NCBI GenBank assembly: GCA_019694435.1
Contig: JAIBBZ010000013.1
Span: forward strand, 1-64,000
Source of the DNA: Pirellulales bacterium
GTDB lineage: Bacteria; Planctomycetota; Planctomycetia; Pirellulales; JAEUIK01
Direction of reading: 5' to 3'
Length of the DNA stretch: 64,000 bases
Shown here: in pieces, positions 15,950-31,334 of the stretch
How the letters are laid out: each line of letters begins with the position of its first letter
How positions within the stretch are numbered: position 1 is the first letter of the stretch
Program-made: the position numbers and the translations under genes
Notes under the pieces: generated by a model
The model's input: only the letters and a program-made list of their open reading frames with translations
Told to the model about the DNA's origin: nothing
Database searches by the model: none

Positions 15950-16291
15950 GTGCTGCTGACCGCTCTGTTTCCGTTGCGAGGTCTGAGTGCCGTGCCGCCC
16001 GTCGGTGCGCGTCCGATGTTGCGCCCCCTGGCGCCGGCGGTGCCCGTGGCCGCCAGCGATGACGACGACGATCTGGACGATGACGTCGAGGGAGATTCCG
16101 TCGACGAAGAAGACGAAGAGGAAGAGGACTTCGACGACGACGACTTCGACGACGACTTCGACGACGATTTCGAAGAAGAGCTCGATCAGGAATTCATGGA
16201 GACCTTCGACGACGAGCCCGAGCCCGCGGCCGACACTGGTGGCGGCGACGATGGCGAGATCGACGAGGAATTCGAAGACGACGACATGTAG
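15950..16291 (+). CDS. Small, extremely acidic protein of unknown function
   Basis: 113 residues. The first 34 are mildly hydrophobic and Pro/Ala-rich with three Arg; from residue 35 to the end, 50 of 79 residues are Asp or Glu and none is Lys or Arg. Phenylalanines recur every four residues in the middle (FDDD repeats). AGGA lies about seven bases before the GTG at 15950; an ATG at 16016 is an alternative. No family recognised. The base pattern gacgacgac is repetitive, but third-position use agrees with a translated frame, and both flanking genes are close. A coding assignment is likely but not certain. Confidence 0.6.
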   Translation: MLLTALFPLRGLSAVPPVGARPMLRPLAPAVPVAASDDDDDLDDDVEGDSVDEEDEEEEDFDDDDFDDDFDDDFEEELDQEFMETFDDEPEPAADTGGGDDGEIDEEFEDDDM

Positions 16292-21460: not shown

Positions 21461-21484
21461 GTTGATCAGGATAAGTTGCGCAGG

Positions 21485-22273
21485 ATGGTGCCAACCGTGG
21501 TCTTGGCGGAAGAACGAAGAAGCCGGCTCTTGGAATTGGTGCGCACGCGAGGCTTTGCCTCGCTGCCGGAATTGGCCGAAGTGTTGCAGGTTTCCGAGTC
21601 GACCATCCGCCGCGACCTCGATTACCTCGAGGAGTCCGGGGCTGCGAAGCGAACCCACGGCGGTGTGTTCTACGCCGGCAGCTCGCCCAAGCTCCCGCAT
21701 TTCGAGGAGCGCCAGCCGGCAGAGTGGGACAAGAAGCAACGCATCGCCCAAGCGGCTGTGCGGCTGATCGCCGATGGCGACACGGTGCTGCTCGACGGCG
21801 GCACGACAACCTACGAGGTGGCCCGGCTGCTGGTCGGCCGGCCGCTGCAAGTGGTGACCAACAGCCTCCCCGTGGCCAACCTGTTCGCCGCCAATGCGAC
21901 CACCGACCTGGTGCTCGTCGGCGGATACGTCTACCCGCGCACCGGCGTGACGCTGGGGCCGTATGCGAACGACATGCTGAGCCATGTCGGCGTGCGGCGG
22001 ACCGTGCTGAGCGTCGCGGGCATCACCGAGCGCGGCTACTACAACAGCAACCTGCTCCTGGTCGAAACCGAACGCGCGATGCTGCGGGCCGCGGACGAAA
22101 TCATCGTCGTGGCCGACAGCACGAAATTCGGGCGCCAAAGCCTGGCCCACCTGTGCGAGCTCAGTGCCGTCACGCGCCTGGTTGTGGACAACGAGATCAC
22201 CGAGGACTGGCGCAGCCGCCTGCTGGCCGCGGGCGTGCAAGTCGTCGTGGCCGGTTCCACGGATAACGCCTAA
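21485..22273 (+). CDS. DeoR/GlpR-family transcriptional regulator of the microcompartment operon
   Basis: 262 residues. An N-terminal winged-helix domain ([20 protein letters not shown], then [17 protein letters not shown] with the recognition helix) is followed by the DeoRC sugar-phosphate-sensing domain with [40 protein letters not shown] and VVADSTKFG. These proteins usually repress sugar catabolic operons and release DNA on binding a sugar phosphate. Being first in the operon, it likely responds to an intermediate such as fuculose or rhamnulose phosphate. A TTG at 21476, four bases after AGGA, is an alternative start adding three residues. Confidence 0.92.
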
Positions 22274-22298
22274 CCAACCCCACCGAGCGCAGCGAGCG

Positions 22299-22973
22299 AT
22301 GAGCACCGCCACGATGAATTTCCCGTCACTCGACCGCAACGTGGTCGAGCGCATCGTCCGCGAAATCGTCCTGCGCGGGCAAGGCACTGCGCCGCGTTCC
22401 AAGCTCGTCGTCAGCGTGTCGGCGCGACACGTGCATTTGACCGACGAGCACGTCGAAATCTTGTTTGGCCCCGGCCGTACGCTCACGCCAATGAAGCCGC
22501 TCTACCAGGACGGCTTCTACGCGGCGGAAGAGACCGTGATGGTGGTGGGCCCTCGCCGGCGGATGCTGCCCAGCGTGCGCATCCTCGGCCCGACGCGGCC
22601 GGCCAGTCAGGTCGAGCTGGCCTTCACCGACGGCATCTCCTTGGGCATCGATCTGCCGACGCGCGCCAGCGGCAAGATCGAAGGCACCCCGGGCTGCGTG
22701 CTCGTGGGGCCCGCGGGAGTCGTCGAATTGAAACAAGGCGTGATTCGCGCCGAGCGGCACGTGCATATGAGCCTGGCCGACGCCGAGCAATACGGCGTGA
22801 AAAACGGCGACCGGATGAGTTTGCGGATCGAGTCGTCGTGCGCCGTGGTGCTGCGAGATCTGCTCGTCAGGGCTGACGCCGCGAGCAAGCTGGAAGTGCA
22901 TCTCGACACCGACGAAGGCAACGCGGCCGATCTCGACCACGCCACCTCGGTCGAGTTGATCCCACAGGACTGA
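22299..22973 (+). CDS. pduL: Phosphate propanoyltransferase PduL, microcompartment phosphotransacylase
   Basis: Converts acyl-CoA and phosphate to acyl-phosphate and CoA, recycling CoA inside the shell. 224 residues. Two zinc-binding HVH motifs are present, [11 protein letters not shown] (His44, His46) and [12 protein letters not shown] (His154, His156), each starting one of the two beta-barrel halves. The N-terminal helix with [17 protein letters not shown] (residues 11-27) is amphipathic and resembles an encapsulation peptide that binds the inner shell face. The ATG at 22299 was chosen because upstream in-frame codons overlap the regulator. It supplies acyl-phosphate to the acetate-kinase-like enzyme encoded three genes on. 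Confidence 0.95.
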
Positions 22974-23046: not shown

Positions 23047-23346
23047 ATGGCAAAGTCGATGGAAGCGCTGGGCATGATCGAGGCCAAGGGGTTCATCACC
23101 TTGGTCGAGGCCAGCGACGCAATGATGAAGGCGGCCAACGTCGAGTTTCTCGGCTGGACCAAGATCGGTAGCGGCCTGGTGACCGCGTTCGTGACCGGCG
23201 ACGTCGCCGCAGTTAAAGCGGCCACCGATGCCGGCGCAGCGGCCGGCGGCCGGATCGGCGAGATCGTCGCGGTGCAGGTGATTCCGCGCCCGCACGAAGA
23301 CCTGAACGTCGTGCTGCCACTGACGGCCAAGTCGTCGGGCGACTGA
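23047..23346 (+). CDS. BMC-H shell hexamer protein 1
   Basis: Single-domain BMC (Pfam00936-type) protein, 99 residues; six copies form a hexagonal tile of the microcompartment facets. [20 protein letters not shown] is the conserved N-terminal strand and helix, [14 protein letters not shown] the second helix, and [12 protein letters not shown] the conserved C-terminal strand. About ten residues extend past the usual end. GGAG precedes the ATG. It is more like standard BMC-H proteins than the second copy is in its pore-region spacing; the two may form mixed facets. Confidence 0.97.
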
Positions 23347-23413: not shown

Positions 23414-23683
23414 ATGGATAACGCGATTGGATTGGTGGAAACCAAGGGCCTCGTGGCTCTGATCGAGGCGACCGACGTGATGGCCAAGGCCGCCAACGTG
23501 CAGATCGTCAAGCAAGTGCAGATCGGCGGCGCGTATGTGACCACGATCGTGCGCGGCGACGTCGGCAGCGTGCGTGCGGCAGTCGAAGCGGGTGCCGCCA
23601 CCGCGGCCCAGATCGGCGACCTGATCGCCAGCCACGTCATTCCGCGCCCCTCGGCCGGTCTGGTGCAGGCTTATATCGGCTAA
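23414..23683 (+). CDS. BMC-H shell hexamer protein 2
   Basis: 89 residues, same fold as its neighbour 67 bases upstream. [35 protein letters not shown] and [13 protein letters not shown] are the conserved elements. The predicted pore loop region is [10 protein letters not shown] compared with [10 protein letters not shown] in copy 1, so the two hexamers probably differ in pore chemistry. Two BMC-H genes and no tandem-domain BMC-T gene is the shell composition known for the PVM type. Confidence 0.97.
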
Positions 23684-23736: not shown

Positions 23737-24921
23737 ATGAAAGTCCTGGTTGCCAATCTCGGTTCGACGAGCTTCAAGTACCGGCTCTTCGACATGGCCG
23801 ACGAGCGCCAGCTTGCGCGCGGCGGAACCGAACGCATCGGTGCCGCCGAAAGCAAGTCGTTCGTCGACATCGGCGGCCACCGCGAGGAAGCGGTGGGGCC
23901 GGTGCCTGATCATGCCGTGGCGGTCCGCCGCTGCTTGGAGCAGTTGACCGATCCGCGGCACGGCTGCCTGCGCGATCCGGGCGAAGTGGCCGCGATCGGC
24001 TTCAAGGCCGTGCACGGCGGGCGATTCAGCGGCGTGCAGCGCGTGACGCCCGAGGTGCTGGCCGCGATGGAGGCGATGGCGACGGTCGCGCCGGCGCACA
24101 ATCCGCCGTACGTCCGGGCCATGCGGATTCTCAGCGAGCGGCTGCCGGAGATGCCGCTCGTCGCGGCTTTCGAGACGGGCTTTCATCAGACCATTCCCGC
24201 GGCCAATCGCTACTACGCGATTCCCTGGGAGTGGGCCGATGCGTTCCAGGTGCAGCGGTGGGGCTTTCATGGTGCCAGCCACCGCTACATCGCCACGCGG
24301 ATGGCCGAACTGCTCGGGCGCAGCGATGCGCGGATCGTGTCGTGCCATTTGGGAGGTTCGGCGTCGCTGTGCGCGATTCGGGGCGGGCAGAGCCAGGCCA
24401 ACAGCCTGGGCATGAGCCCGCAGACCGGGTTGCCGCACAACAACCGCGTGGGCGATTTCGACGTGTTCGCCTTGCCGGTGCTGCTGGAGCGGACCGGCAA
24501 GCGTCTGGATGAGCTGCTGGTCGAGCTGGCCGAGCACAGCGGGCTGCTGGGCTTGAGCGGCACGAGCGGCGACGTTCGCGACCTCGAAGCCGCGGCCGCC
24601 CAGGGCGACACGCGGGCTCAAGTCGCGCTCGACGTGTTCATGGGCTCGGTTCGGCATTACCTGGGCGCCTATCTCGTCGAGCTGGGCGGCGCCGACGCGA
24701 TCGTGTTCACCGGGGGCATCGGTGAAAACGGCATCAACGTCCGCCGCCAGGTGTGCCGGAACCTGGCCGAACTGGGCATCGTGCTCGACGAGGCCAAGAA
24801 CGAGACGGCGCGCGGCGAGGCACGGATCGATGCCGCCGAGAGCCGCGCGCAAATCTGGGTCGTGCCCACCAATGAAGAGTTGGTCGTGGCCCGGCAGGTC
24901 AAGGAACTCTTGCAAGGCTAA
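23737..24921 (+). CDS. ackA: Acetate/propionate kinase-like enzyme of the microcompartment operon
   Basis: Makes ATP from acyl-phosphate and ADP, releasing the carboxylate (here probably lactate). 394 residues, normal length. It shows the ASKHA pattern: [15 protein letters not shown] (usual N.GSSS.K), [39 protein letters not shown] and [10 protein letters not shown]. The substrate-loop segment reads [12 protein letters not shown] where typical acetate kinases have GTRSGD, so it is a diverged branch and its substrate may be larger than acetyl-phosphate. No terminal encapsulation helix is visible, so it may act outside the shell. Confidence 0.93.
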
Positions 24922-24924
24922 AGC

Positions 24925-25236
24925 ATGTTCGTCGCCAAAGTCACCGGACACGTCGTCGCCACGCAAAAGGTCGCGGCGATGGTCGGCCAGAAACTGTTGA
25001 CGGTCGAGCCCTATCGCGTCGACGAACAAAACCGCGCCGCGCTGAAAGCGACAGGTCGGACGTTCGTGGCGGTCGATACGGTCGGCGCCGGCACGGGGGA
25101 TTACGTGCTGATTGTCCAGGGCTCGAGTGCCCGCATGACTCCCGAAACAAAACCCTTGCCCGTCGACGCGGCCATTATCGGCATCGTCGACACGGTGCAC
25201 GTCGCCAGCGACTGCGTCTATCGTCGCGGCGATTGA
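24925..25236 (+). CDS. BMC-P (EutN/CcmL) shell pentamer protein 1
   Basis: 103 residues, four bases after the kinase stop. Pentamers of this family cap the vertices of the icosahedral shell. VAKVTGHVVATQKVAAMVGQ is the EutN/CcmL opening, then KLLTVEPY, AVDTVGAGTGDYVLI and the C-terminal AAIIGIVDTVHV. This is the most canonical of the three BMC-P genes in the operon. Confidence 0.96.
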   Translation: MFVAKVTGHVVATQKVAAMVGQKLLTVEPYRVDEQNRAALKATGRTFVAVDTVGAGTGDYVLIVQGSSARMTPETKPLPVDAAIIGIVDTVHVASDCVYRRGD

Positions 25237-25303: not shown

Positions 25304-26737
25304 ATGCAAACGACTGAAAGCCTGATTCGCAGTGTGGTGCAAGAAGTCCTCGCCCAGATGGTGGCCACCGCGCCGGCCGCGGTGTCGCGCGGCTACCAGG
25401 GGCGTCACGGCGTGTTTCAAACGGTCGACGAGGCCGTGGCGGCCGCGACCGAGGCCTTCGACCGGCTGTCGGAACGCACGATCGAAGATCGCCGCCGGAT
25501 CATCGATCACATTCGCCGGATTTCCATCGAGCAGAGCGTCGAGCTCGGCACGATGGAAATGAACGAGACGAAGATCGGCCGTCTGGAACACAAGATCGAG
25601 AAACTCAAGACGCTCGGCGAGCGAACCCCCGGCGTTGAATTCATGCGCAGCGAGGTGTTCAGCGGTGACCACGGCCTGGCCGTGATCGAGCATGCCCCCT
25701 TCGGCGTCATCGGGGCCATTACGCCGGTCACTCATTCGCTGCCCACGATCACCGGCAACGCCGTCAGCATGATCGCCTCGGGCAATACGCTGGTCGTGAA
25801 CCCGCACCCCAGCGGCAAGCGCGTCGCGGCCGAAGGCGTGCGACGGTTTAACGAAGCCATTCATGCCGACCTCGGCATCGACAATCTGATCTGCGTGATC
25901 GCCGAGCCGACGCTCGATACAGCCGAACAGGTCTTCAAGCACCGCGGCATCCGGTTGATCTGCGTCACCGGGGGGCCGGCCGTAGCCCGGGCTGCCATGA
26001 ACAGCGGTAAGCGGGCCATCGTCGCCGGGCCGGGCAATCCGCCGGTCGTGGTCGACGAAACGGCCGACCTGGACCGCGCGGCGCGCAGCATCCAGCGGGG
26101 TGCCGCCTACGACAACAACCTGCTGTGCATCGCCGAGAAGGAAGTCTTCGTCGTGGCCAGCGTGTTCAACGACTTTATGAAGGCGATGGAACGGCCCGGC
26201 ACGGCGGCGCTGTGTGCCCGCGAGGTCGACGCGCTGACCAAGGTCGCCATCACGACCGCGGGCGAGGGCGCTCACAAGCACGACGTACCGTGTAAGGATT
26301 TCCTCGGGCAGGACGCGGCGGTTCTGGCGCGGGGCATCGGCAAGACCGTGCTGCCCAATACCGAACTGCTGTTCGGCGAAACCGACGAGCACAACCCCTT
26401 TGTGACCGTCGAACAGATGATGCCGTTCGTTCCCATCGTGCGCGTCAAGAACGTCGACGAGGCGATCGCCAAGGCCAAGCACTACGAGCACGGCTATCGC
26501 CACACGAGCATCATTCATTCGAACAACGTGCGGAACATGACCCGCATGGGCCGCGAGATGGACACGACGCTGTTCGTCAAGAACGGCGCTTCGATGACGG
26601 CCTTGGGTCTCGGTGGCGAAGGCTACCTGTCGTTTTCGATCGCCACGCCCACCGGCGAAGGCGTGACCACCCCGCTGACGTTTACCCGCGAGCGCCGCTG
26701 CACGCTGGTCGACGACCTGCGAATCATCGGCAAGTAG
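25304..26737 (+). CDS. CoA-acylating aldehyde dehydrogenase, microcompartment type (PduP-like)
   Basis: Oxidises an aldehyde with NAD and CoA to acyl-CoA, here probably L-lactaldehyde to lactyl-CoA. 477 residues. The catalytic Cys275 lies in [12 protein letters not shown], which is the acylating (PduP/EutE) rather than the hydrolytic context; [14 protein letters not shown] and [12 protein letters not shown] form the NAD site. The first 20 residues ([16 protein letters not shown]) form an amphipathic helix then a short linker, the encapsulation-peptide arrangement seen in PduP. Signature enzyme of the compartment. Its NADH is probably reoxidised by the dehydrogenase encoded at 29085. Confidence 0.96.
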
Positions 26738-26757: not shown

Positions 26758-27024
26758 ATGATGCAACTCGGACGCGTTGTCGGCACGGCCATCTCGACGG
26801 TCAAGCATCGCACGATGCAGGGCTGGAAGCTGCTGGTCGTGCAGCCGTTGCGGGCCGACGGGCAATCGCCCGACGGCGACCCGCAATTGGCTATCGATAC
26901 GCTTGGCGCGGGGCGCGCAGAGCTGGTCCTGCTGTCCAACGACGGCAAGAGCGCCCGAGACCTGATCGGCGACCCGACCAGCCCGGTCCGTTGGACCGTG
27001 CTGGGAATTGTTGACGGACGATAG
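26758..27024 (+). CDS. BMC-P (EutN/CcmL) shell pentamer protein 2
   Basis: 88 residues, 20 bases after the aldehyde dehydrogenase. MQLGRVVGTAISTVKHRTMQ, KLLVVQPL, AIDTLGAGRAELVLL and VLGIVDG match the EutN/CcmL family. Two consecutive ATG codons open the frame. It lacks about 15 residues present in copy 1, mostly in the loop before the last strand. Confidence 0.94.
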   Translation: MMQLGRVVGTAISTVKHRTMQGWKLLVVQPLRADGQSPDGDPQLAIDTLGAGRAELVLLSNDGKSARDLIGDPTSPVRWTVLGIVDGR

Positions 27025-27043: not shown

Positions 27044-27796
27044 GTGACGCCATCGACCGAAACCACGAACGGCGCAGCAGTCGGGCTCTCGCCCGAACTG
27101 GTCGATCGCATCGTGCGCGAGGTGCTGGTGCGTCTCGCGCCGGCTGCGGCCAGTCAAACACCGTCCACCGCCGCCGTTGCCCCGGATCTGTTGACGCTGG
27201 TGCTCGACGAGCGTGTGATCACGCTGCGGCAGCTTGCCGAGCACCTGGGTTCCGCGCGCACCTTGCAGGTGGCTCCCCGCGCCGTGATCACGCCGGCCGC
27301 ACGCGACCTGTTGCGCCAGCGCGGTGTCGCCCTCGTTCGCGCCTCCGCGGTCCCGGCTCCGGCGGCGGCGAAATCGACACAACGAGTGACCGTCGCCGTC
27401 GCCGAAACGAAATTCGACGCCTCGGCCCTGATCCGCGATTTGCGCAAGCTGCCTCGCGAAGTTGAGGCGCTGGCTTCGTGCGGGCTGGTGACGGTCGCCC
27501 GAGAAATGGCGGATCGCGTGGCCCGCGGTGGCGATCTGGGCGTGTTGCTGACCGACCAGGCTGCCGCCGCCTTGTGCCTGACCAATCGGCACGCGGGCGT
27601 CCGGGCCATGGCGCCGGCCGATGAGGCGGGCCTGCGACGCGGCTGCGCGGCCGTGGGAGCCAACCTGCTGGTGGTCGATTTGCAAACCGTGCGACCGCAC
27701 CAGGTGAAATTGCTGGTCCAACAGTTCTGCCTGGGGGCCCCGTATCGCTGTTTAGAACCCTACGGCCGCGCCTTGGCGGCGGCGGCCGCGAGCTAG
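27044..27796 (+). CDS. Microcompartment-associated protein, N-terminal encapsulation-type helix and RpiB-like C-terminal half
   Basis: 250 residues; function unknown. Residues 15-33 (LSPELVDRIVREVLVRLAP) form an amphipathic helix nearly identical in pattern to the PduL N-terminus. A middle part (about 50-105) contains VITPAARDLLRQRGVALV, a phrase also seen near the N-terminus of BMC cobalamin-adenosyltransferase-like and other microcompartment proteins. The last 130 residues read GDLGVLLTDQAAAALCLTNR, HAGVRAM and GANLLVVDL, which resembles the nucleotide-like fold of ribose-5-phosphate isomerase B, but the RpiB active-site Cys in GILICGTG is absent. GTG start at 27044, 19 bases after BMC-P 2. 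Probably luminal; enzymatic activity uncertain. Confidence 0.7.
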   Translation: MTPSTETTNGAAVGLSPELVDRIVREVLVRLAPAAASQTPSTAAVAPDLLTLVLDERVITLRQLAEHLGSARTLQVAPRAVITPAARDLLRQRGVALVRASAVPAPAAAKSTQRVTVAVAETKFDASALIRDLRKLPREVEALASCGLVTVAREMADRVARGGDLGVLLTDQAAAALCLTNRHAGVRAMAPADEAGLRRGCAAVGANLLVVDLQTVRPHQVKLLVQQFCLGAPYRCLEPYGRALAAAAAS

Positions 27797-27830: not shown

Positions 27831-28121
27831 ATGACCATCGGCGAGGTAATTGGCACCGTAACGCTAGGCCGTAGCCATCCCAGCCTGACCGGCGCGCGGT
27901 TTCGCCTGGTGGTGCCGCTGTCGCTCGAAAACTTGCAGGGCAGCCAAGAACCACGGGCCGAGGCGCTGGTGGTCTACGACGAATTGGCAGCCGGTGTCGG
28001 TGCCCTGATCGCGTTCACCGAGGGCGGCGAGGCCGTCCAGCCGTTTTATCCCGACGACAAACCGATCGATGCCTACAACGCGGCCGTGCTCGACGCCGTC
28101 GACCTCGTCCGCCCCGCATAA
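27831..28121 (+). CDS. BMC-P (EutN/CcmL) shell pentamer protein 3
   Basis: 96 residues. GEVIGTVTLGRSHPSLTGAR and RLVVPLS are clear EutN/CcmL features; the middle is diverged (EALVVYDELAAGVGALIAF replaces the usual VDTVGAG) and the end AVLDAVDLV is the last strand. AAGGAG lies nine bases before the ATG at 27831. The altered central segment suggests a specialised vertex or a different pore. Confidence 0.93.
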   Translation: MTIGEVIGTVTLGRSHPSLTGARFRLVVPLSLENLQGSQEPRAEALVVYDELAAGVGALIAFTEGGEAVQPFYPDDKPIDAYNAAVLDAVDLVRPA

Positions 28122-28150: not shown

Positions 28151-29038
28151 ATGAACATTCACGCCCTCAAGCAAGACATTTGCGAGATTGGTCGCCGGCT
28201 GTATTCCAAGGGATTTGCCGCGGCCAACGACGGCAATATCTCGATTCGGATCAGCGACAACGAAGTGCTCTGCACCCCGACGATGATCTGCAAAGGCTTT
28301 ATGAAGCCCGACGACATCTGCTCGGTCGACCTGGAAGGCAACCAGCTTTCGGGCCGCCGCAAGCGCACCAGCGAAGTGCTCTTGCACCTGGCGATCATGA
28401 AGAAACGGCCCGAGGTGAAAAGCGTTGTGCATTGCCACCCGCCCCATGCGACGGCGTTTGCCGTGGCCCGGCAGGCTATTCCGCAATGCGTGCTACCCGA
28501 GGTCGAAGTGTTTCTCGGCGACGTACCGATCACGAAGTACGAGACCCCCGGCGGACAGAAGTTTGCCGACACGGTGCTGCCGTTCGTCGAGAAGACGAAC
28601 ATCATGATCCTGGCCAACCACGGCACGGTCAGCTACGGCGAGAACGTCGAGCGCGCCTATTGGTGGACCGAAATCCTCGACGCCTACTGCCGCATCCTGA
28701 TGCTCGCCCGCGACCTGGGCAAGATTAACTACTTCAATCAGCAAGAGGCCCGCGAGCTGCTCGAACTGAAGGCCAAGTGGGGCTTTCCCGACGCCCGGCT
28801 CGAGAAGGGCATGGAGAACTGCGACATCTGCGCGAACGACGTGTTCCGCAATAGCTGGACCGAGACGGGCGTCGAACAACGCGCCTTCGAGGCGGCCCCG
28901 CTGATGGCGCCGGGTGCCGCGGCCAGTCCTCCGGCGGCGAATGCCGCCCCGGTCCCGGCGCCGATCGCCGGCGTCGACACCGAGGCCCTCGTCCAAACCA
29001 TCACCGACCGCGTCATGGCGGCTTTGGCCAGTCGCTAA
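28151..29038 (+). CDS. Class II aldolase (fuculose/rhamnulose-1-phosphate type) with C-terminal encapsulation-type helix
   Basis: Zinc aldolase, probably cleaving L-fuculose or L-rhamnulose 1-phosphate to DHAP and L-lactaldehyde. 295 residues against about 215 for FucA. Zinc ligands and catalytic Glu are visible: Glu75 in TSEVLLH, His94 and His96 in VVHCHPPHA, and His157 in LANHGTVSYG. After the catalytic domain comes an Ala/Pro linker (about 252-272) and a final amphipathic helix, DTEALVQTITDRVMAALASR, the form of a C-terminal encapsulation peptide. It therefore probably generates lactaldehyde inside the shell. Confidence 0.93.
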   Translation: MNIHALKQDICEIGRRLYSKGFAAANDGNISIRISDNEVLCTPTMICKGFMKPDDICSVDLEGNQLSGRRKRTSEVLLHLAIMKKRPEVKSVVHCHPPHATAFAVARQAIPQCVLPEVEVFLGDVPITKYETPGGQKFADTVLPFVEKTNIMILANHGTVSYGENVERAYWWTEILDAYCRILMLARDLGKINYFNQQEARELLELKAKWGFPDARLEKGMENCDICANDVFRNSWTETGVEQRAFEAAPLMAPGAAASPPAANAAPVPAPIAGVDTEALVQTITDRVMAALASR

Positions 29039-29084
29039 TCACCGCTTCTGGCAACTCGCGGACTCTTAGAAATTTCTCTTGGCA

Positions 29085-30029
29085 ATGAAAATCAGCATCA
29101 TTGGCGGCGGCGGATTGGTCGGTTCGTGCACGGCGTTTGCGCTGCAGGCGGCCGGGGTCGGTAGCCACCTCGCGCTGCTCGACGTGAACGCCGACCTGGT
29201 CGGAGGTCAGGCGCTCGATTTGCTGCACGGCTCGTCGACGACGGCCGATCAGCGGATTACTGCGGGTGGCTACGACGAAATCCCCGATTCCAGCGTGATC
29301 TGCATTACGGCGGGTCTGCGCCGCAAGCCGGACGAAAGCCGGCTCGACCTGATCAACCGCAATGTCGATCTGTTCGTCGGCATCCTGAGCCAGGTGCGCC
29401 AGGCGGGGCATTGTAAGAACGCAATCGTCGTCGTGGTTTCGAATCCCGTCGACGTGCTCACATACCTGGCCGCCGAGCTGCTCGAATTGCCGCCGGCGCA
29501 GGTGATTGGCCTGGGGACCGTGCTCGACACCGTTCGATTCCGCAGCCTGATCGCAGCGCGGATGCAGGTCCCGCCGACGCAAGTCAACGCGCTGATCTTG
29601 GGCGAACACGGCGACAGCATGGTGCCGGTCTGGTCGAGCGCCGCGGTGGCCGGACTGCCGCTGGAAAAATTTCCCGGCTGGAATCCGAACCTGGCGAGCG
29701 AGCTGTTCGAGCGCACAAAGGGTTCCGGCGCCGAAGTCATCAAGAAAAAAGGCGGCGCCGGCTTCGCGGTCGGACTGGCGATTCGCGACGTCATTGCGGC
29801 GATCGGACAAGACAGCCGCCGCATCCTGCCCGTCTCGACGGTGCAACAGGGCGCCTACGGCATTCGCGACGTCGCCCTGAGCGTGCCGACCGTCGTGGGA
29901 CGCAAGGGCGCACTGGGAATTCACGAGCTCGAGTTGTGGCCCAAGGAAATGCAGGCGCTCAAGCGCAGCGGGCAAGTGCTCAAGCAAACCCTCGACACCG
30001 TCCTGGCCCGCGTGCGCGCCACGCGCTGA
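29085..30029 (+). CDS. NAD-dependent lactate/malate dehydrogenase family enzyme
   Basis: 314 residues. Rossmann start ISIIGGGGLVGS, Asp33 in LLDVNAD (NAD preference), VSNPVDVLTYLAAEL, Arg151 in DTVRFRSLIA, and catalytic His175 in GEHGDSMVPVW. In lactate dehydrogenases the residue after AGxx is Gln; here AGLRRKPDESR places Arg80 there, as in malate dehydrogenases. In this operon it is usually expected to recycle NADH. The ATG at 29085 is preferred to an upstream TTG two codons earlier. No encapsulation helix is obvious. Confidence 0.88.
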   Translation: MKISIIGGGGLVGSCTAFALQAAGVGSHLALLDVNADLVGGQALDLLHGSSTTADQRITAGGYDEIPDSSVICITAGLRRKPDESRLDLINRNVDLFVGILSQVRQAGHCKNAIVVVVSNPVDVLTYLAAELLELPPAQVIGLGTVLDTVRFRSLIAARMQVPPTQVNALILGEHGDSMVPVWSSAAVAGLPLEKFPGWNPNLASELFERTKGSGAEVIKKKGGAGFAVGLAIRDVIAAIGQDSRRILPVSTVQQGAYGIRDVALSVPTVVGRKGALGIHELELWPKEMQALKRSGQVLKQTLDTVLARVRATR

Positions 30030-30059: not shown

Positions 30060-31334
30060 ATGGCCCTGGTCGAAAAATCGCTCGACCGCAAACTGCGGAA
30101 CATTCATGCCGATCCGTCCGGCGCCCGGGACTTCATCCTGGCCGACGCGAAGGATGCCGACATGGCGTTCGGCATCGGCTCGCCGGGCCGCTCGCCGGAG
30201 ATGCATGCCGGCGAGACGCGTTTTCGCACGTTGCCCGAGTATCGCGAGCAAATCCGCGAAATCGTGCGGCAAGGCCTTGTCGATATCATGTTGATGTCGA
30301 CCAGCACGTGCGCACAACTGGCCGTCGCCGAGCAACTCTTTGCCGAGAGCCACGTGACGCCCGCGGCGCGGGCCAACGACACGACCGACATCTTCGTCCT
30401 GCGCGGCAACCAGTACATTGCCGAGCCTTCGCGGCCGTTCCGCACGGCCTCGCTCGACCACATCCAGTGTGGCCATCTCGGCTGCACGCCCGAGGAGCGA
30501 TCGAAGGGCGCCAACCTGGGGCTCTACAGCATCACGTTCAACAACCGTCTCGACGAAGACCTCACGGCCCTCGAAGCCTATCGCGCCTTTCGCCTCGAGG
30601 CCGAGCGAGTCGGCTTTCGGCATTTCCTCGAGGTGTTCGATCCGAACGCGCCGCAGGGGTTGACGCCTGCGGAAGTGCCGGCCTTCGTTAACGACGCCAT
30701 TGCCCGCACGCTCGCCGGCGTGGCGGCGGCCGGCCGTCCGACGTTCTTAAAGGTCGTCTACCACGGTCCCAAGGCCATGGAAGAGCTGTGCGCTTACGAC
30801 CCGCACCTGGTCGTGGGCATCTTAGGCGGCGCGGCCGGCACGACCTACGACGCGTTCAAGCTGATCGCCGAGGCGCAGAAATACGGCGCTCGTGTGGCCT
30901 TGTTCGGCCGCAAGATCAACGGTGCCGAATCGCAATTGGCGTTCGTCGAGTTTCTCCGGCTGATCACCGATCGCGTCATCACGCCCGAGGAGGCGGTCAA
31001 GGCGTACCACGCCGTATTGGGCAAGCTGGGATTGCGTCCGCATCGCAGCCTGGCGGAGGATCAGGTGCTGCAAACCGGCGTGATGAGCTACGGCAGCTCG
31101 AGCGTTACGGTGCCCGCGGCGATTCCGGTCGCCGGAAGTGAGAGCCCCGCAACGAAGCCCGCCGGCGGCTGTGGGTGCGGAGGCGGCTCGGCCACGAAAT
31201 GTGCCTGTCCTCCGAAGGCTGCTCCGGCCGAGAGCGTTCCCTCAGCGGACAACGCCGAGCCCGATTTCGCCAAGATGAGCCGGGCCGAAAAACTGGCCTG
31301 GAACAAGGCCCGCCGCGACCGCATCTTCGGCTAG
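30060..31334 (+). CDS. Conserved microcompartment-operon protein, aldolase-like barrel with Cys-rich tail
   Basis: 424 residues; family not firmly recognised. The body (1-345) alternates strands and helices with phrases such as PTFLKVVYHGPKAM (Lys231), LVVGILGGAAGTTYDAFKLI and ARVALFGRKINGAES, which resemble class I aldolase-type TIM barrels of the DhnA/DeoC kind with a Gly-rich phosphate loop. Cys137 and Cys142 sit in IQCGHLGC. After an Ala/Pro linker the tail holds Cys371, 373, 381 and 383 (CGCGGGSATKCACP), then ends with KMSRAEKLAWNKARRDRIFG. The four cysteines could bind metal or an Fe-S cluster. Last gene of the operon, 30 bases after the dehydrogenase. Confidence 0.7.
   Translation: MALVEKSLDRKLRNIHADPSGARDFILADAKDADMAFGIGSPGRSPEMHAGETRFRTLPEYREQIREIVRQGLVDIMLMSTSTCAQLAVAEQLFAESHVTPAARANDTTDIFVLRGNQYIAEPSRPFRTASLDHIQCGHLGCTPEERSKGANLGLYSITFNNRLDEDLTALEAYRAFRLEAERVGFRHFLEVFDPNAPQGLTPAEVPAFVNDAIARTLAGVAAAGRPTFLKVVYHGPKAMEELCAYDPHLVVGILGGAAGTTYDAFKLIAEAQKYGARVALFGRKINGAESQLAFVEFLRLITDRVITPEEAVKAYHAVLGKLGLRPHRSLAEDQVLQTGVMSYGSSSVTVPAAIPVAGSESPATKPAGGCGCGGGSATKCACPPKAAPAESVPSADNAEPDFAKMSRAEKLAWNKARRDRIFG

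Follow-up and report, generated by a model that had tools for sequence, protein, structure and literature searches.

How a microcompartment couples its enzyme core to the surrounding shell is not yet settled. The locus described here raises it for a single protein, which is unnamed, is encoded between the genes of two vertex proteins, and resembles a sugar-phosphate isomerase with a degenerate active site. The gene lies in the window, i.e., the whole stretch of DNA that was analysed (64,000 nucleotides from a Pirellulales bacterium), and belongs to a complete PVM-type operon. The PVM microcompartment is of the fucose/rhamnose type.

The operon and the gene between BMC-P2 and BMC-P3

The genes of the operon, in order, were as follows.

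21476..22273, + strand: DeoR-family regulator (sequence and synteny)
22164..22973, + strand: PduL phosphotransacylase ORF with an EP (Pfam PTAC)
23047..23346, + strand: BMC-H shell protein 1 (sequence and synteny)
23414..23683, + strand: BMC-H shell protein 2 (sequence and synteny)
23737..24921, + strand: acetate/propionate kinase (sequence and synteny)
24925..25236, + strand: BMC-P1 vertex protein (PF03319 match)
25304..26737, + strand: aldehyde dehydrogenase (AldDH) with an EP at the N-terminus (Pfam Aldedh)
26758..27024, + strand: BMC-P2 vertex protein, directly upstream of the pseudo-RpiB gene (PF03319 match; synteny)
27044..27796, + strand: candidate PVM pseudo-RpiB adaptor gene, starting with GTG and encoding 250 aa, in the order EP, module, degenerate RpiB domain
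27831..28121, + strand: BMC-P3 vertex protein, directly downstream of the pseudo-RpiB gene (PF03319 match; synteny)
28151..29038, + strand: class II aldolase, the PVM signature enzyme, with an EP-like C-terminus (Pfam Aldolase_II)
29079..30029, + strand: lactate/malate-type dehydrogenase (Pfam Ldh_1_N and Ldh_1_C)

Within the pseudo-RpiB gene, three parts were delimited.

27092..27151, + strand: predicted encapsulation helix (EP), aa 17-36 (ELVDRIVREVLVRL...), from EP profile matches and model helix H17-36
27191..27340, + strand: BMC module, aa 50-99, beta-alpha-beta-alpha-beta, with P84 and D88 of TPxxxD invariant, from profile comparisons
27377..27793, + strand: RpiB-fold domain, aa 112-250, with none of the RpiB catalytic motifs, from Pfam, Foldseek, VIA-align and motif counts

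A homolog was detected by tblastn in 48 of 57 relatives, and the 30 orthologs aligned were 28-41% identical; in viral contigs, no relative was detected. Wherever the contig extended, the gene sat between BMC-P2 and BMC-P3 (52 planctomycete loci inspected). These matches and the constant position indicate that the open reading frame is not a chance one. Two other open reading frames of the window were recorded. The one after the dehydrogenase (30060-31334, +, 424 aa) is rich in Cys close to the C-terminus (CGCGGGSATKCACPP); it occurred in many PVM loci by tblastn and gave no Pfam match. The other (15950-16291, +, 113 aa) is very acidic and of low complexity, with runs of D and E.

The RpiB fold and the loss of its active site

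The C-terminal half had been likened in a first-pass annotation to ribose-5-phosphate isomerase B lacking the catalytic Cys, and both points held. The Pfam family LacAB_rpiB (PF02502) matched the window protein with an E of 2e-4 and 21.8 bits, under the curated cut-off of 24.7, and matched 19 of the 30 orthologs, with a best E of 8e-7. Furthermore, the profile of the ortholog alignment found RpiB/LacB chains in the PDB. The AF2 model of the 250-aa protein had a mean pLDDT of 87, and its residues 110-250 matched RpiB structures with a Foldseek E of 3e-6 and a VIA-align Z of 18.6 (rmsd 2.1, 139 aligned); no unrelated fold was returned. In the alignment, the column of the catalytic Cys was occupied by Thr170 in the window protein and by T in 36 of 48 sequences.

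The loss extended to all the other active-site motifs. The D-H pair, the oxyanion loop (C/D-G-x-G-x-G), the catalytic His and the phosphate-binding Arg pair were absent by motif search from 47 of 47 PVM orthologs (two regex matches lay off position and were not counted), and the same motifs were present among the housekeeping RpiBs in 23-27 of 27 and among the SPU RpiBs in 12-13 of 13. No replacement catalytic set was conserved among the 47 orthologs. N181, R182 and N207 were nearly invariant and GVRA was also conserved, but these residues correspond to positions of the RpiB fold (ANK, xNVL), not to catalytic ones. The C-terminal domain is an RpiB fold with lost catalytic motifs, and its sequence suggests that the PVM protein is a pseudoenzyme descended from an isomerase. 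An intact RpiB with all catalytic motifs was present elsewhere in the same genome (L032:1474-1944), and an intact housekeeping RpiB in 29 of the 30 relatives searched. The housekeeping copy of this genome has the RpiB fold in common with the PVM protein, whereas it has neither EP nor module and its catalytic motifs are complete. A housekeeping identity for the PVM protein was dropped because of this intact copy.

An isomerase with altered chemistry had been one of the roles suggested at first. Such an enzyme, or a related one, would fit the retained fold, the EP and the sugar-phosphate pathway. However, no active-site position was conserved, nothing took the place of the motifs missing from every ortholog, the domain was lost in four PVM loci, and the relatives mostly have an intact RpiB; altered chemistry is therefore highly improbable. 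A non-catalytic ligand sensor or regulatory partner would also explain the retained fold and the near invariance of N181, R182 and N207, either with a sugar phosphate (fuculose-1-P, DHAP) as the ligand of the pocket or by pairing with an active RpiB in the manner of LacA/LacB. It is quite unlikely, because these residues belong to the fold, the Arg pair and the oxyanion loop are gone, and the domain is dispensable. Moreover, no RpiB partner was found in PVM loci, and a LacA-type heterodimer was dropped for that reason. For a cofactor-handling role, which had also been raised, no support was obtained.

The origin of the protein was indicated by SPU-type loci, which encode proteins of EP-module-RpiB architecture with the catalytic motifs intact (e.g., L146, L148, L156 and L157). 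In two of them (L172 and L177) the order was BMC-P, intact EP-module-RpiB, BMC-P, BMC-P, DeoC, i.e., the BMC-P/RpiB/BMC-P/aldolase order of PVM loci with DeoC replacing the class II aldolase. The SPU RpiB and the PVM protein are alike in the order of EP, module and RpiB fold, and at L172 and L177 in gene order as well, whereas the D-H pair, the GxG loop, the catalytic His and GRHxxR are kept by the former and none of them by the latter. The SPU profile outscored the housekeeping profile on 37-42 of the 47 PVM domains, and the E. coli RpiB was neutral between the two (166 vs 164 bits). In the tree, PVM grouped with SPU RpiB with a moderate support of 90/86; the PVM stem was very long, and the housekeeping grouping was not rejected (p-AU 0.30). 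Most likely, an encapsulated EP-module-RpiB isomerase of the SPU type was the ancestor of the PVM protein.

The gene position might also be taken as a sign of a vertex-assembly factor, which would act on the neighbouring BMC-P2 and BMC-P3 pentamers at shell closure, as the gene lies between two BMC-P genes in planctomycete loci and the SPU RpiB likewise. However, the SPU RpiB in the same position is catalytically intact, so vertex assembly does not follow from the position by itself, and we regard this role as very unlikely.

Two observations on related RpiBs were made. Thirteen SPU-type RpiBs (L114, L117, L125, L129, L131, L146, L148, L149, L152, L156, L157, L159 and L160) had Asp at the catalytic Cys position (VDGAGIG) and kept D-H and REHN; judging by the sequences, this Asp is possibly a different catalytic residue. 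In addition, acidobacterial EP-module-RpiB proteins beside DeoC (L105:1369-2106, +, and L173) had also lost the catalytic motifs and represent a second pseudo-RpiB.

The encapsulation helix and a third domain

The encapsulation helix claimed in the first-pass annotation was located at aa 17-36. Among 17 E. coli eut proteins, its profile ranked EutC (4e-7) and EutE (1e-3) as the top two; these are the pair of E. coli eut enzymes for which an EP is known. The profile also matched pduE and pduB. The hydrophobic-moment ranking within the protein did not single out this helix. A terminal EP-type helix, a linker and a gene inside a BMC locus were all found, and the protein is accordingly a candidate luminal cargo carrying a predicted EP.

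The architecture had been described as two-part. The EP and the degenerate RpiB domain were borne out, but a third and more conserved domain (aa 50-99) had been overlooked. This module scored 1.90 bits per column vs 1.48 for the RpiB domain, and together with the EP it was the most conserved stretch; P84 and D88 of TPxxxD were present in 48 of 48 sequences. Modelled alone, it gave a pLDDT of 96.7 and a beta-alpha-beta-alpha-beta arrangement.

NCBIfam placed the module at the C-terminus of both PduM and TIGR02536. For the PduM family (TIGR04493), the match was confined to the C-terminal module, and the best ortholog reached 20.1 bits vs the cut-off of 50. When genome G000 was searched with the NCBIfam models of PduM and TIGR02536, nothing was obtained at E ≤ 1; the module alone is shared. 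The module profile ranked EutT first and EutQ second among the 17 E. coli eut proteins (both at the N-terminus) and PduM first among 21 pdu proteins (at the C-terminus). With hhalign, planctomycete modules were compared with a set fixed beforehand, E. coli EutQ, EutT and PduM, which gave an E of 4e-8 and a score of 36.6, whereas 200 shuffles scored at most 13.8. With six further module sequences the E was 2e-12, a partly circular value, as most of the six came from the profile itself. These profile comparisons make the module a homolog of the N-terminal regions of EutQ and EutT and of the C-terminal region of PduM. According to a description of 2025, no sequence homology of PduM was known beyond Pdu compartments.

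In the fold search with the module, no Foldseek match reached an E of 0.001, and its profile gave nothing convincing among PDB sequences (best E 0.6). The best fold rows were Cas1 N-terminal domains (Z 6.4); kinship to them was dropped, and the likeness was taken as a common small arrangement.

Natural variants, the proposed adaptor role and the distribution of the module

At least two BMC-P genes were present in 55 of the 57 relatives and the module was carried by 49, so that EP and module were conserved in about 49 of 55 PVM-bearing relatives. Four PVM loci (G011, G028, G050 and G055) encoded the EP and module only, in about 81-120 aa without the RpiB domain. The first three belong to one family and G055 to another, in which its sisters keep the full protein. 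Since these four loci keep EP and module only, the RpiB domain is dispensable and EP plus module is the retained core. In G009, G013, G026, G030 and G037, no such gene was found between BMC-P2 and BMC-P3, although the PVM loci were otherwise complete-looking, and G034 had an internally deleted remnant without the module. The gene is therefore not strictly essential.

These losses raise the question of whether the protein is vestigial cargo, i.e., an EP-module-RpiB from an SPU-like ancestor that is now useless and is being lost piecewise. The four lost domains, the five absent genes, the single remnant and the lower conservation of the RpiB domain relative to the module would agree with this. 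However, the retention of EP and module in most PVM-bearing relatives with P84 and D88 invariant speaks against it, and all four trimmed versions retain EP and module, which is unexpected under simple decay. We consider vestigial cargo unlikely.

The retained core is comparable to two known proteins. EutQ requires residues 9-41 (H1/H2, the module) to associate with the shell, its helices H3/H4 (62-99) bind cargo EPs, and losing either region parts shell from cargo; the shell contact is based on deletions and AlphaFold models, not on a structure (PMC12487888). PduM is a structural protein that needs its own EP, and when it is lost, core and shell come partly apart (PMC12108088). The PVM protein resembles PduM, which couples core to shell, in its N-terminal EP and the same module, and it likewise combines an EP and a PduM-type module with the absence of a catalytic site. 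In PduM, however, the module is at the C-terminus and the middle region has no match to the RpiB profile. With EutQ, the likeness lies in the module (H1/H2, the shell side), the EP-binding helices and a globular C-terminal domain, whereas in EutQ the module comes first and the protein has been reported to act as an acetate kinase. The PVM protein falls outside the EutQ family, as its C-terminal domain has the RpiB fold and not the cupin PF06249.

From the computed fold, the loss of catalytic motifs, the module homology, the SPU architecture and gene order and the EP-plus-module versions, we infer, at slightly better than even probability, that the PVM protein is an SPU-derived RpiB pseudoenzyme serving as a PduM/EutQ-like shell-core adaptor. 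What looks like a dead isomerase keeps an EP and a module shared with known assembly proteins, and it therefore probably helps to hold the enzyme core to the shell and performs no chemistry. The EP helix would join the protein to the EP-clustered core, in which AldDH, PduL and the aldolase carry EPs, and the module would contact a PVM shell protein, by homology with the shell-binding region of EutQ and the C-terminus of PduM. The RpiB-fold domain would be at most a dimerisation or spacing body, which is a guess. The isomerase chemistry of the SPU type would not be needed in the PVM pathway. Of the roles proposed in the first-pass annotation, that of a scaffold is thus the favoured one, as the EutQ/PduM-like module would suggest. 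Such a protein would clearly illustrate how an enzyme can become a structural component of an organelle. Moreover, a module common to PduM, EutQ, EutT and this protein would make the core-shell connection testable across organelle types and would offer engineers a candidate docking tag.

The occurrence of the module was examined more widely. It was found once each in genomes G000, G005 and G017, where the next best E was 0.05 or worse. In 59 genomes of the Raoultella order, six matches at E ≤ 0.01 were obtained, all BMC proteins: a flavoprotein-like protein of a GRM-type locus, PduM, EutQ with EutT beside it and, in a single genome, an Fe-alcohol dehydrogenase, an EP plus C-terminal-module protein adjoining a EutJ-like gene, and a 112-aa module-plus-helix protein. 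In 29 acidobacterial loci inspected, the module was carried by EP-bearing RpiB, DeoC (N-terminal) and AldDH (C-terminal); shell genes were near only some of them, most of the loci covering 1.5 kb on each side, and in a few wider stretches DeoC was present and no shell gene was seen. An acidobacterial PVM-like locus without a separate gene had an aldolase fused at its N-terminus to the module and EP-like at its C-terminus. In other planctomycetes, the module occurred on intact EP-module-RpiB, on ACT-domain proteins in BMC loci, on a triose-phosphate isomerase encoded in an SPU locus, and on a single aminotransferase, within 8 kb of which no shell gene lay. Most of the module proteins inspected were in microcompartment loci or were of cargo types.

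As ordinary cargo enzymes (DeoC, AldDH, intact RpiB, triose-phosphate isomerase) also carry the module, its role may be that of a general aid to encapsulation and not of a dedicated tether. A broader account, which we hold at somewhat less than an even chance, takes the module as a general BMC-specific docking domain that was shuffled among numerous families, i.e., the EutQ, EutT, PduM, DeoC, AldDH, RpiB, triose-phosphate isomerase, Fe-alcohol dehydrogenase, class II aldolase, ACT and flavoprotein-like families. Module and EP would together form a common core-to-shell connector in the different types of microcompartment, and the PVM protein would be an RpiB pseudoenzyme repurposed to the connector alone.

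Some of the module proteins merit mention for themselves. The ACT-domain proteins fused to the module were encoded in the planctomycete microcompartment loci L163-L167. In the Fe-alcohol dehydrogenase (L087:265-1659, -), the module is N-terminal; EutG reportedly has an N-terminal extension of unknown function. At L091, EutQ is apparently split, with the 112-aa module-plus-helix protein (1456-1791, +) directly upstream of a module-less EutQ cupin (1933-2445, +), and such a split might explain the reported lack of the first helices in Gram-positive EutQ.
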